DNA of 64,000 bases, taken from contig WGMH01000003.1 of the NCBI GenBank assembly GCA_016125165.1, positions 186,001-250,000 on the forward strand, given 5' to 3'. The translations under genes were made by a program, and so were the position numbers. Each line of letters begins with the position of its first letter. Position 1 is the first letter of the stretch. This DNA comes from Alphaproteobacteria bacterium. GTDB lineage: Bacteria; Pseudomonadota; Alphaproteobacteria; Micropepsales; Micropepsaceae. Below are positions 33,421 through 37,711 of this stretch, in pieces. Below the pieces are notes generated by a model. The model was given only the letters and a program-made list of their open reading frames with translations. It searched no databases and was not told the DNA's origin.

Positions 33421-34995
33421 TCAGGTTCCGGACTTCTTGTGCGCATCTTCGGCCAGTGCCTGCATCGGCAGAGGCGAGAACTGCATGGCGCTTGCGCGCG
33501 CAGCCGCGAGTTGTTGCGGCGTCAACTGCGTGTCGAGAACCTGCAGGCGTTCGCGCGCTTCGCCGTCGCCGCCGGATGCTGCAATCGCATACCATTTATA
33601 GGCATCGAACAGGCTTTGCGGCACGCCGAGCCCGCGTTCAAACATCACGGCCAGATTGAACTGGGAATCGCCGTATCCGAGCGCGGCGGCTTTCGCGAAC
33701 CAGCGCGCGGCCTCTTCTTCGTTGCGATCCGTTCCCCAACCCTGCGCGTAGGCAACAGCCAGATTGTGCATGGCCTTGCGATGGCCCTGCAGCGCGGCGC
33801 GCTCATACCAGCGCACGGCATTGGTGCGATCTTCCAGCGTATGCGCCGTGCGCTGTTCATAGACACCAAGCCGGTACTGTGCGTTAGGATCCCCTGTCTC
33901 CGCCGCATGCTGGAGATTCTCTACCATCGGCGTTTCCGGCACGGATGCCGCAAGAATGGATTTGTGGCGTACGGAATCAATTCGCGCCTGTCCAAGGCCG
34001 AACTCCGCGCCCGCATTTCCGCGCGGCAATGGCTGACCGCGACTGAGCATCAGGCCCGCACCGGAAAGCGTTGCGAACAGCATCAGTGCCACACCTGCCA
34101 ACGCCTGCGTGCGCCGGGGAACGCCAGTCAGTGTCCGAAATATCCCGACGATGCGCTTTGCTATGCCCTGCTTTTCCGGCTCCGGAGGGATTGCAGCGGC
34201 GGCGGCTCGGGCTGCTTCTCGCGCGGCACGGATGCCCGACGAGCTTGGCGGCGCGTCGGAAGGGGGCGCGGGCGGTGGCGTTGATGCCGCCTCCGGCACG
34301 TGGTCGTCTGAACCAGAACTTTCCGGCGCTGGCATTTCCATCGGTTCGGCAAATGCACCGCCAGCCTTCAAAGCTTCAACACGATTAGCCAGTTCCACAA
34401 ATAGCTGGCGGGCATCGCGTAAACCGTCAGCCTGAACGCGCTCGGTCTCACTCACACGGCCGCTCAGATCCGCTTCCCGTTGCTCCATGAGAGAAAGCGC
34501 ACGGGTTTGGGCCTCCTCAACGGCGCTCTGGCGGGCCTGCAAGGCTTCCAGCGTGTGCTCGAACACGCGCAGTCGCCGTTCCAGCCAGGCATCCACGCGC
34601 CGAGCCTCCAGCCGCGCCAGCCGTTCCTCGATGGAGGTCTGTTCCGAGGCCGATGGTTGTATAACCGGTGTGGCGGCAGGTGCACTGCCGCGTGTGTTCG
34701 GGTGGGGCGCCGGTTGTGCCATTTCGGCACATTCCGGGTTTGTTTCGACCTCAGGCGCCGCAACAGTCCGCATTCTGGCCGCGAAACCGGCCAGGTCTTC
34801 AGCCAGTATGGCGGTCATCAACTCGTTCTTGCCCGCAAAATGCGCGAACATGGCCCGCGGGGCGAGACCCGCGGCCTTGGCCACTTTGCTGATGGTGAGT
34901 TTGGCAGCGCCCTCGGCCGCGATGAGGGCACGCGCGGCGTCGAGAATCTCCGCGCGGGAGATATCCGTCCGCACCTTTCGCGCCGCCTGCCCCAT
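33421..34995 (-). CDS. TetR-like HTH / coiled-coil / transmembrane / Sel1-repeat fusion protein
   Basis: The 524-residue protein begins at ATG 34995 behind AGGAGG. Residues about 12-58 are a recognisable TetR N-terminal helix-turn-helix (ISRAEILDAARALIAAEG, KVAKAAGLAPRAMFAHFAGK). A heptad-rich coiled coil follows (about 120-212), then a Pro/Ser-rich linker, one membrane helix (about 297-317, QALAGVALMLFATLSGAGLM) and, outside the membrane, three to four Sel1/TPR-like repeats (about 357-485). The C-terminal half resembles the periplasmic Sel1 part of the polarity factor PodJ. No TetR ligand domain is present. This looks like a membrane-tethered DNA-binding or localisation protein; its function is unknown. 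Confidence 0.85.
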   Translation of the reverse strand: MGQAARKVRTDISRAEILDAARALIAAEGAAKLTISKVAKAAGLAPRAMFAHFAGKNELMTAILAEDLAGFAARMRTVAAPEVETNPECAEMAQPAPHPNTRGSAPAATPVIQPSASEQTSIEERLARLEARRVDAWLERRLRVFEHTLEALQARQSAVEEAQTRALSLMEQREADLSGRVSETERVQADGLRDARQLFVELANRVEALKAGGAFAEPMEMPAPESSGSDDHVPEAASTPPPAPPSDAPPSSSGIRAAREAARAAAAAIPPEPEKQGIAKRIVGIFRTLTGVPRRTQALAGVALMLFATLSGAGLMLSRGQPLPRGNAGAEFGLGQARIDSVRHKSILAASVPETPMVENLQHAAETGDPNAQYRLGVYEQRTAHTLEDRTNAVRWYERAALQGHRKAMHNLAVAYAQGWGTDRNEEEAARWFAKAAALGYGDSQFNLAVMFERGLGVPQSLFDAYKWYAIAASGGDGEARERLQVLDTQLTPQQLAAARASAMQFSPLPMQALAEDAHKKSGT

Positions 34996-35127
34996 TCGCG
35001 CCTCCTCAACGCCCGGCCCGCGAAGGACCGGTTCATGTCGGCGCATTGGTGCACGGCCCGCTTTAAGAATCCGCCGCGCGAGCCGCTAAAATTTTAGGTA
35101 GCCGGAGCGGGGCCACGGCGAGAGCGA

Positions 35128-35375: not shown

Positions 35376-36572
35376 CTAATGAGGATTGGTTGCTGGCCGG
35401 GAGGAAGATTTGTCCAGAACGCCAGGATCGTCCCATGCGCCTTCCGGACGGATCAGAACGTATGGGTCGGAGTGAATCGTCAGTGGTTCGGGATGCGGCT
35501 CCAGCTCGCCGACCAGTTCGACATACTCATGGTCTGAGAACACCAGCGGCACATTTTTCGCGATCGGCTTGAAGCCGAACTGGGCCCAAAAGCGCAACAG
35601 TCGCTTCTGCCCGTGGCCATAGACTTTGCGATAGCCCTTGCGCCGCACGAAATCGACAGCAGTTTTCACCACGGAACGCGCGATCAGCGTACGCCGGAAT
35701 CTCGGCAGAACCGCCATGCGTTCGAGCTTCGCGAAATCGGCGAAGTAGCGGATGCGCATCGTCGCCGCGGGCTGTCCGTCCACGTAGCCGATCAGATGCG
35801 TGCCGGTATAGTCGTTGCCGTCAAATTCCTCTTCATACGGACAATCCTGCTCGGCCAAGAATGCGGCCGCGCGAATGGCCATCGCCATCTGCACTTCATC
35901 GCCGGTGGTCGCGACCTTGACCTTGAAGCGGTCATGCATGGGATTTGTGCGCTTGGCGTTTTCAACCTTCGGCTTGTCGGTATTGCCGCCTAGCCAATAT
36001 TGCTCGCCCACGCCTTCGTGGCCGTCGCGCATGGGGGTAAAGCCAAAACCGCGCAGCGCGCGCAGGCCCGCTTCGGTGGCCGCCGTGGCACAAAGCGGAA
36101 GACCGGCGTAGGACGCGCCCAGCCCGAAAGCCACCAGCGGGATGGCGATGGACGCCAGCCGCTTTATAACGAAAGACCACATATAAATGATCTCGGCCGG
36201 CTCGCCGTCGGCGGCCACACAGCTCAGATCGGGAACGCGCGTATTAAGTGTATTACTACGTAAATGTTGTTCCCCTTTTTCGTTGAGGAATAGGAAGCTC
36301 AAATACCCAACGAATCGTGCATTGGTGTGTGCATCGTCGTCGGCCCGGAACACGCCCCAGAAGGATTCCTGATTGTGCTTCAGCACCGTGGCGGCGACGT
36401 TGACCGATCCGACACTGGGGTCGAGCTGGGTGTGCGTGACCGCTTCCGCCAGGGGAAGCTCGTCCAGCCGCAGCGGCCGCACAAAAACAATGCCCCCATC
36501 GGGATGCGGCGCACTCTTTATTCTGCTGGCGTCTTCCGCAGCGGCAGGCGCGGTCTCGTTCTGATCGGCCAT
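35376..36572 (-). CDS. tandem GNAT-domain acyltransferase (autoinducer-synthase/FeeM-like)
   Basis: This is a 398-residue protein with two GNAT-like halves. The C-terminal domain is the clearer one: AIRAAAFLAEQDCPYEEEFDG, HLIGYVDGQPAATMRIRYF, LERMAVLPRFRRTLIARSVV (acetyl/acyl-CoA pocket) and GYRKVYGHGQKRLLRFWAQFGF. This block resembles LuxI/FeeM-type N-acyl amino acid synthases. The N-terminal half keeps a degenerate GNAT pattern ending in ALRGFGFTPM. It is divergent from a LysR gene with 95 bp between the starts, a typical regulator-target pair. Whether it makes an acylated signal is not shown. Confidence 0.78.
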   Translation of the reverse strand: MADQNETAPAAAEDASRIKSAPHPDGGIVFVRPLRLDELPLAEAVTHTQLDPSVGSVNVAATVLKHNQESFWGVFRADDDAHTNARFVGYLSFLFLNEKGEQHLRSNTLNTRVPDLSCVAADGEPAEIIYMWSFVIKRLASIAIPLVAFGLGASYAGLPLCATAATEAGLRALRGFGFTPMRDGHEGVGEQYWLGGNTDKPKVENAKRTNPMHDRFKVKVATTGDEVQMAMAIRAAAFLAEQDCPYEEEFDGNDYTGTHLIGYVDGQPAATMRIRYFADFAKLERMAVLPRFRRTLIARSVVKTAVDFVRRKGYRKVYGHGQKRLLRFWAQFGFKPIAKNVPLVFSDHEYVELVGELEPHPEPLTIHSDPYVLIRPEGAWDDPGVLDKSSSRPATNPH

Positions 36573-36667
36573 CACCGTAAATCCCCTTCTCGTCGCAGTG
36601 AGCTTCTTGCTCGTTTATGCTTTTGTCGCCCGTGGGAAAGCGGGCGCTGCGGGAGAAGCTCACCCAA

Positions 36668-37711
36668 ATGAGATCGAGTCGGAAACCCCGCAAAGGGTTA
36701 TTGGGCCATAAGGAGATCGCACCTCCTGAGACCCTGAAAAACGTGGATTGGGACGATTTCCGGATTTTCACGAGCGTAGCGCGTGCAGGCAGCTACACGC
36801 GGGCCGCGCGGGAACTCGGCATGACGCAACCTGCCGTCAGCCAGCGCATGAACAAATTCGAACACGCCATGGGTGTGCGCCTGTTCGACCGCAACGCCCA
36901 GGGCGCCACCCTCACTTCCGATGGGGCACGCGTTCTGAATTATGCGAGCGCCGCAGAAGTGGCGCTGACCCGCGCCATGGCGATGGCGCAGGACGCCGTT
37001 GAAAATGTGCAGGGGCGTTGCAGTCTCGCGGTCGGTGAAGGGCTCTGCGCCTATTGGGTGTCGCGCTTCATCACACCCTTCATCATAGCCAATCCGAACA
37101 TCGAACTTCAGGTCTTCACGACACAGGATCGCGCGGGAAGCAAAAAGGCGCTCTACGATCTTCAGATCCAATACACAGAACCGACCGATCCCGGTCTTAT
37201 CGCGATGCGCGTCGCAAACCTGCACTTCATGCTGTACGCCTCAACCGACTACATCGCCACGCATGGTGCGCCCCTGCAGTTCGAGGACCTGATCGATCAC
37301 AGGCTGCTGGATCATACGCTCGGGCTTACACAGCGCGGCACGCTCGCCACCTGGGCCAACTATTCGAAGACCCCCGCCCTCTTCACCAATTCCATGGTCG
37401 CGCTTGCCGAAGCGGCACGAAACGGTTCCGGTATTGCGCTGTTGCCGACCTATGCGGGACTGGTGGATCGCAACCTCGTTCCACTTCTTCCTGGCCTGAA
37501 CTTCCCGACGCCCGTCTATCTCTGTTTCGAGCGCGGCGCGCGCGAAAAGCCGGCGGCTCACGTCCTGCTCGAATATGTCAGGAATGTTGTATTCGACAAA
37601 CGCGCGATGCCCTGGTTCGACGAGGAATTCCATATTCCGCAACAACGCTGGCACGACATGTTCAAGGCGCGGCTTGCGTCCCTGGGCGGTCAGAAGGCGG
37701 CAAAGAGTTGA
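36668..37711 (+). CDS. LysR-family transcriptional regulator
   Basis: The protein has the N-terminal LysR helix-turn-helix (DDFRIFTSVARAGSYTRAAR, ELGMTQPAVSQRMNKFEHAM) and a periplasmic-binding-protein-like effector domain (from about residue 108 to the end, with VANLHFMLYASTDYI and GSGIALLPTYAG). I chose ATG 36668 (347 aa), which puts GGGAG about 11 bp upstream; an ATG at 36617 lacks a ribosome site. Divergent placement suggests it regulates the tandem-GNAT gene. The effector is unknown. Confidence 0.9.
   Translation: MRSSRKPRKGLLGHKEIAPPETLKNVDWDDFRIFTSVARAGSYTRAARELGMTQPAVSQRMNKFEHAMGVRLFDRNAQGATLTSDGARVLNYASAAEVALTRAMAMAQDAVENVQGRCSLAVGEGLCAYWVSRFITPFIIANPNIELQVFTTQDRAGSKKALYDLQIQYTEPTDPGLIAMRVANLHFMLYASTDYIATHGAPLQFEDLIDHRLLDHTLGLTQRGTLATWANYSKTPALFTNSMVALAEAARNGSGIALLPTYAGLVDRNLVPLLPGLNFPTPVYLCFERGAREKPAAHVLLEYVRNVVFDKRAMPWFDEEFHIPQQRWHDMFKARLASLGGQKAAKS

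Follow-up and report, generated by a model that had tools for sequence, protein, structure and literature searches.

Why a DNA-binding domain of the TetR type should be joined, in one polypeptide, to a membrane helix and Sel1 repeats is the question raised by a gene in the window, the stretch of 64,000 nucleotides of a Micropepsaceae genome that was analyzed here. The gene, at 33421–34995 on the minus strand including the stop codon, was recognized from its translation, Pfam matches, and relatives as encoding a TetR-headed PodJ-like membrane protein of 524 residues. Its start ATG lies at 34995, the stop codon occupies 33423–33421, and the frame is uninterrupted. A Shine-Dalgarno sequence, AGGAGG (35001–35006, minus strand), lies 5 bases 5′ of the ATG. 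Thus, the well-placed start reported by the first-pass annotation was confirmed; its coordinates were right, and the strand, which it did not give, is minus. An alternative in-frame ATG at 35046 would yield a product of 541 residues. The neighboring genes encode a GNAT acetyltransferase (35376–36575, minus strand) and a LysR regulator (36719–37711, plus strand), and this arrangement is syntenic with two related loci (L030 and L043).

The N-terminal head matched Pfam TetR_N at residues 17–63 (34807–34947, minus strand), with an E-value of 5e-12 and a score of 45.8 bits (gathering threshold, 24). The PDB sequence search also matched the head to solved TetR-family repressors, e.g., 5d18 (34.5 bits, E-value 2.5e-7). 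The structure was modeled by AlphaFold2 on a 19-row alignment, the model numbering starting at residue 2 (one is added to obtain the 524-residue numbering); the mean pLDDT was 79 overall, and the helix-turn-helix formed a helical unit at residues 14–79 with pLDDT mostly about 90. The recognition helix region, defined by alignment and entropy, comprises residues 45–52 (APRAMFAH; 34840–34863, minus strand). The ligand-binding and dimerization domain that follows the helix-turn-helix in TetR proteins was absent by Pfam and AlphaFold2, in line with the first reading of the sequence, and a disordered linker, coiled coil, transmembrane helix, and Sel1 repeats were observed instead.

Beyond the head, AlphaFold2 predicted one single helix of 98 residues (116–213; 34357–34650, minus strand), probably a coiled coil, which includes the clade motif RLRVFE. 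A Pro/Ser-rich disordered linker follows at residues 214–252 (34240–34356, minus strand); pLDDT was below 50 over most of it, and the mean pairwise identity of the linker in the fusion alignment was 0.20. Alignment further revealed a juxtamembrane helix at residues 253–267 (34195–34239, minus strand) with the motif AREAARAAA, of a kind common to PodJ. The transmembrane helix, predicted at residues 294–318 (34042–34116, minus strand) from the AlphaFold2 helix, hydropathy, and positive-inside count, would place the N-terminus inside. The positive-inside rule was kept over 48 non-redundant fusions, with a mean of 6.2 Lys/Arg in the 25 residues before the helix and 2.7 after it. The predicted periplasmic part consists of Sel1 repeats at residues 355–504 (33484–33933, minus strand), supported by three Pfam stretches (E-value 9e-24), Foldseek matches to solved Sel1 proteins, and the Sel1 tree described below, and modeled as a solenoid with pLDDT mostly 94–98. 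The matches listed by Foldseek for the full model were Sel1/TPR-type proteins, so that search was no test of the TetR head. Hence, a DNA-binding-type domain and a transmembrane helix are present in one chain by Pfam, AlphaFold2, and hydropathy, and the coiled coil, linker, single transmembrane helix, and extracytoplasmic repeats proposed from the sequence were all borne out by the predictions.

The first-pass annotation had named a frameshift or sequencing error joining two genes, or a missing TetR_N match, as grounds for doubting this unusual domain combination. The TetR_N match proved well over the cut-off, the frame is unbroken, and dozens of independent assemblies show the same layout. The order as sampled is a single family of 96 genomes, and a survey of homologues and their neighborhoods found open frames with the TetR_N head and Sel1 together in at least 48 of them; 46 belong to the genus group of the window, counting its own genome, and 2 to another genus. 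Many had shared neighborhoods. Removal of redundancy left 48 fused sequences. A scan of genome contigs with the single sequence gave no match, and an alignment-based scan gave matches; all 19 alignment rows matched TetR_N and Sel1 at E ≤ 1. When nine further fused relatives were scanned singly, eight passed the TetR_N cut-off and the ninth fell just short (21 bits). Two of the relatives are named Rhizomicrobium (Micropepsaceae). In one locus (L034:4851-6538, from the same genome as L068), a frameshift, either real or a sequencing error, lies between the TetR head and the body, which would suit an assembly artefact or two genes joined by chance. However, the fusion is kept in 48 non-redundant sequences, many sharing neighborhoods. 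Because at least half of the family genomes encode the same fusion, many in common surroundings, the artefact reading was rejected, and we consider its probability negligible. The domain combination is real and conserved.

Neighbors recurring with several relatives were methionyl-tRNA synthetase, a DUF502 protein, a beta-lactamase-fold protein, and a glycosyltransferase. In many relatives (L036, L037, L040, L041, and L042), though not in the window, a protein resembling an FTR1-type iron permease by eye is encoded directly upstream of the fused gene. Several subclade A genes (L027, L031, L043, and L110) seem to start at TTG (apparently GTG in L110), after a conserved CGGAGCCGTCA stretch. The fusion was not found in the 380 Alphaproteobacteria sampled outside the family; among the matches listed there, all were C-terminal only, mainly in Sel1 (profile positions ~238 upward), and never included the head. 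At this sampling, therefore, the fusion seems confined to the family. Within it, several small-genome genus members gave weak matches at most, consistent with absence of the fusion and PodJ alike. Among the plasmid-borne matches listed, only the C-terminal part was matched, partially, with none reaching 80% coverage, and a search of viral contigs with one of the relatives as the query gave no match. A role in anti-phage defence was also considered and rejected, as PADLOC returned no match.

In Alphaproteobacteria such as Caulobacter, PodJ acts as a polar scaffold, characterized by polar localization and recruitment of PleC. Many family genomes also encode a protein of ~830 residues whose N-terminal sequence is MRPDLPWNVAGIPPEAREAARAAARREGLSVGEW and which has coiled coils, one transmembrane helix, and Sel1; we take it to be canonical PodJ. 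This protein begins with a conserved head of ~45 residues of another kind than TetR_N. The window protein has the same layout in prediction, namely, a cytoplasmic coiled coil, one transmembrane helix with the N-terminus inside, and periplasmic Sel1. In a quick tree of 129 Sel1 domains with one support measure, a branch (SH-aLRT 87) separated every fused row (n = 46), along with 10 head-less rows, from the entire set of PodJ and outgroup rows. The window protein accordingly does not group with PodJ but beside it, on the fused-clade side of this split; its exact place is unsure because its branch is long. The juxtamembrane motif ARRxA/AREAA was present in 35 of 48 fusions and 24 of 29 PodJ proteins, whereas an RLxVxE-type coiled-coil motif marks the fused clade (44/48 fusions compared to 3/29 PodJ). 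As all fusions lie on one side of the split, we read the protein as a paralogue of PodJ in which TetR came to serve as the head. The resemblance to PodJ seen at first was thus upheld as phylogenetic kinship, through the Sel1 tree and the juxtamembrane motif, beyond mere likeness.

The simplest reading of these sequences is that the TetR head was gained once on a PodJ-like body, and several losses would have followed. Four members of the same clade (L190, L191, L195, and L218) have the coiled coil, transmembrane helix, and Sel1 and no TetR head. In two genome pairs (G065/G067 and G017/G026), head-less members were nested among fused ones, with no helix-turn-helix frame nearby; the remaining head-less rows are weaker cases, as they involve contig ends, a frameshift, or long branches. 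DUF6538, an N-terminal domain of phage-type integrases, stands at the TetR-head position on a transmembrane-Sel1 body in one genome (L227:2637-3887), and the heads therefore appear swappable. In the genome of the window, canonical PodJ was not detected by searches with the full-length protein or the head profile, although this genome is 95.6% complete and a gap could hide it; no match to the profile of the PodJ head (PWNVAGIPPEAREAARAAARREGLSVGEW) was found anywhere in it, the head of the window protein being TetR_N.

Whether the head binds DNA was then considered. By score, it ranks 15th of the 28 TetR_N matches in its own genome, and its net charge is +3, compared to a mean of +1.2 (range −1 to +4) for the other TetR_N proteins there. 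Thus, it is a normal TetR domain. Over the fused clade, the mean head charge was −0.7, slightly negative and below that of other TetRs. Residues T/S34 and K/R56, which in TetR proteins usually contact the DNA backbone, were kept in 44 and 46 of the 48 fusions, respectively. In subclade A (n = 9), the recognition helix (ARATxYGYF) had a nearly invariant exposed face, with an entropy of 0.11 bits compared to 1.56 at other exposed positions; none of 5000 shuffles reached this. The shuffle value overstates the case because grouping by recognition helix itself biases that face toward low entropy, above all in subclade A. Exposed positions and subclades were our own selection, based on the TetR fold and on the sequences of the helix. 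No significant gain in conservation of the recognition face over other exposed positions was seen for subclades B, C, D, E, and G (p 0.10–0.75), and the branch of the window was too small to enter. No upstream palindrome shared by fused genes was found with exact 7-base half-sites and 0–12 base spacers in the ~400 bases preceding each of 43 genes, which represent seven recognition-helix groups, a search that a degenerate operator would escape. Autoregulation through such a palindrome was thus unsupported. The near-invariant face in subclade A is as expected for DNA binding, and judging from conservation, binding is likely for the heads of this subclade and plausible for that of the window.

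Taken as a whole, we put at about one half the probability that this protein is a single-pass inner-membrane scaffold, a PodJ paralogue in which a TetR-type DNA-binding head replaced PodJ's own, and that it couples one or more chromosomal sites to an envelope location. TetR heads bind in pairs, and because the usual TetR dimerization domain is gone, we infer that the long helix is the obvious dimerizer. The coiled coil would pair two chains such that two TetR heads grip a palindromic site, and the transmembrane helix and Sel1 domain would anchor the complex in the envelope, probably via the cell wall or a partner in the periplasm. One chromosomal site, or a small set, would thereby be coupled to an envelope location, and local effects on transcription are possible. 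A polar location is assumed here by analogy with PodJ. Since lineages drop the head yet keep the body, the body would have its own job. The more specific proposal, that the scaffold directly grips specific chromosomal sites through its TetR head, ties chromosome position to the envelope or pole in Micropepsaceae, and replaces PodJ in the genome of the window, is tentative, and we regard it as somewhat doubtful.

Of two mechanisms suggested by the first-pass annotation, the one in which an envelope signal sensed by the Sel1 repeats controls the head amounts to a one-component transmembrane transcription regulator like ToxR or CadC; Sel1 would sense the envelope state or a periplasmic partner, and the transmembrane helix and coiled coil would pass this on as altered operator binding. 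A cytoplasmic DNA-binding domain, transmembrane helix, and periplasmic domain in one chain follow the general plan of this class (PMC10269533), Caulobacter HigX is a membrane-held transcription factor that binds envelope-gene promoters in an alphaproteobacterium (PMC13384398), and the recognition face of subclade A is conserved. However, several lineages without the head keep the rest, where loss of the head would abolish a regulator; the linkers among head, coiled coil, and transmembrane helix are long, disordered, and variable, which is poor for a rigid relay; and the upstream region has no shared palindrome. The signal-sensing mechanism, weakened by the head-less lineages, is thus unlikely. 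The other mechanism, in which DNA binding would place or couple an envelope scaffold, fits better. Because the head was lost repeatedly and the body retained, a scaffold with a DNA-binding accessory is favored over a pure transcription factor.

That several lineages dispense with the head would also suit a pure polarity or cell-wall scaffold whose TetR-type helix-turn-helix was co-opted for protein interaction, for which RodZ, with an Xre-like helix-turn-helix that binds MreB, is a precedent. The recognition face without special conservation in most subclades, the slightly negative average charge of the head, and the swappable heads indicated by the DUF6538 relative are consistent with such a role. 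Nevertheless, subclade A conservation, the retention of T/S34 and K/R56, and the score and charge of the window's head, which are those of an ordinary TetR protein, argue against it, and we consider it improbable as well.

The canonical PodJ head, aligned from L050:4003-4200 and 32 related loci, was predicted as a two-helix hairpin with a mean pLDDT of 69.7 and about 90 in the helices. Its top seven Foldseek matches were all Arc repressor, six of them at 0.6–1.1 Å over 33–36 residues with a probability of 0.85–0.93; the E-values were 0.7–1.4 because the domain is tiny. Pfam gave weak NikA-like matches below the cut-off. PodJ's own head, as modeled, may therefore be of the Arc-like ribbon-helix-helix type. 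If so, the TetR head would represent a swap between two DNA-binding-type folds, and the same DNA-binding question would be carried to a well-studied model scaffold. PodJ-type heads were also observed in several short open frames close to one another, frequently consecutive, in other Alphaproteobacteria (e.g., G191:C4:38682-39773, G319:C12:9084-10702, and G110:C45:19676-23036). Direct chromosome-envelope links through a single protein are rare, and a PodJ paralogue that is conserved, confined to one lineage, and equipped with a TetR head of full strength offers a clean test of DNA binding by polarity scaffolds, for which the natural head-less relatives are ready controls.

Among known systems, TetR repressors share the N-terminal TetR_N at full strength, whereas the window protein lacks the ligand and dimerization domain, is predicted to be membrane-anchored, and showed no autoregulatory palindrome. 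SlmA, a TetR-family nucleoid occlusion factor, likewise uses a TetR head for chromosome-linked positioning, and weak NCBIfam and PDB matches of the window protein fall in its helix-turn-helix; in contrast, SlmA is soluble, has a complete TetR fold, and binds FtsZ, and the NCBIfam score, 14 bits, was below the cut-off of 120. Vibrio SflA has a single transmembrane helix, periplasmic TPR/Sel1-like repeats, a cytoplasmic DnaJ domain, and a HubP-dependent polar location (PMC7226244). The window protein likewise combines a single transmembrane helix, Sel1-like repeats, and a cytoplasmic effector domain, but in the reverse domain order and with TetR where SflA has DnaJ. Transmembrane transcription regulators are widespread, with more than 100 types of DNA-binding domain (PMC10269533); TetR is unmentioned in the main text of that paper, although its supplementary table may list it. 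HigX, of the LytTR type, is described as the first of these characterized in Alphaproteobacteria (PMC13384398). ToxR, CadC, TcpP, and Caulobacter HigX similarly hold a DNA-binding-type domain at the inner membrane by transmembrane helices; they differ in their DNA-binding folds, and periplasmic Sel1 with a long coiled coil was undescribed for them in the literature searched. In this literature, which included few subscription papers, no description of TetR and Sel1 in one protein or of PodJ with a DNA-binding head was found, in agreement with the first impression that no such system had been described. PodJ itself has coiled coils, a disordered membrane-proximal region, a transmembrane helix, and periplasmic repeats (PMC9926476, PMC9684454), and Caulobacter PodJ carries a peptidoglycan-binding domain (PMC9684454) that was not seen after the Sel1 repeats of the window protein. 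Although the latter also differs in its TetR_N head and a shorter coiled-coil region with its own RLRVFE motif, it shares with PodJ the cytoplasmic coiled coil, the disordered membrane-proximal region, one transmembrane helix, periplasmic Sel1, the juxtamembrane motif, and Sel1 ancestry.
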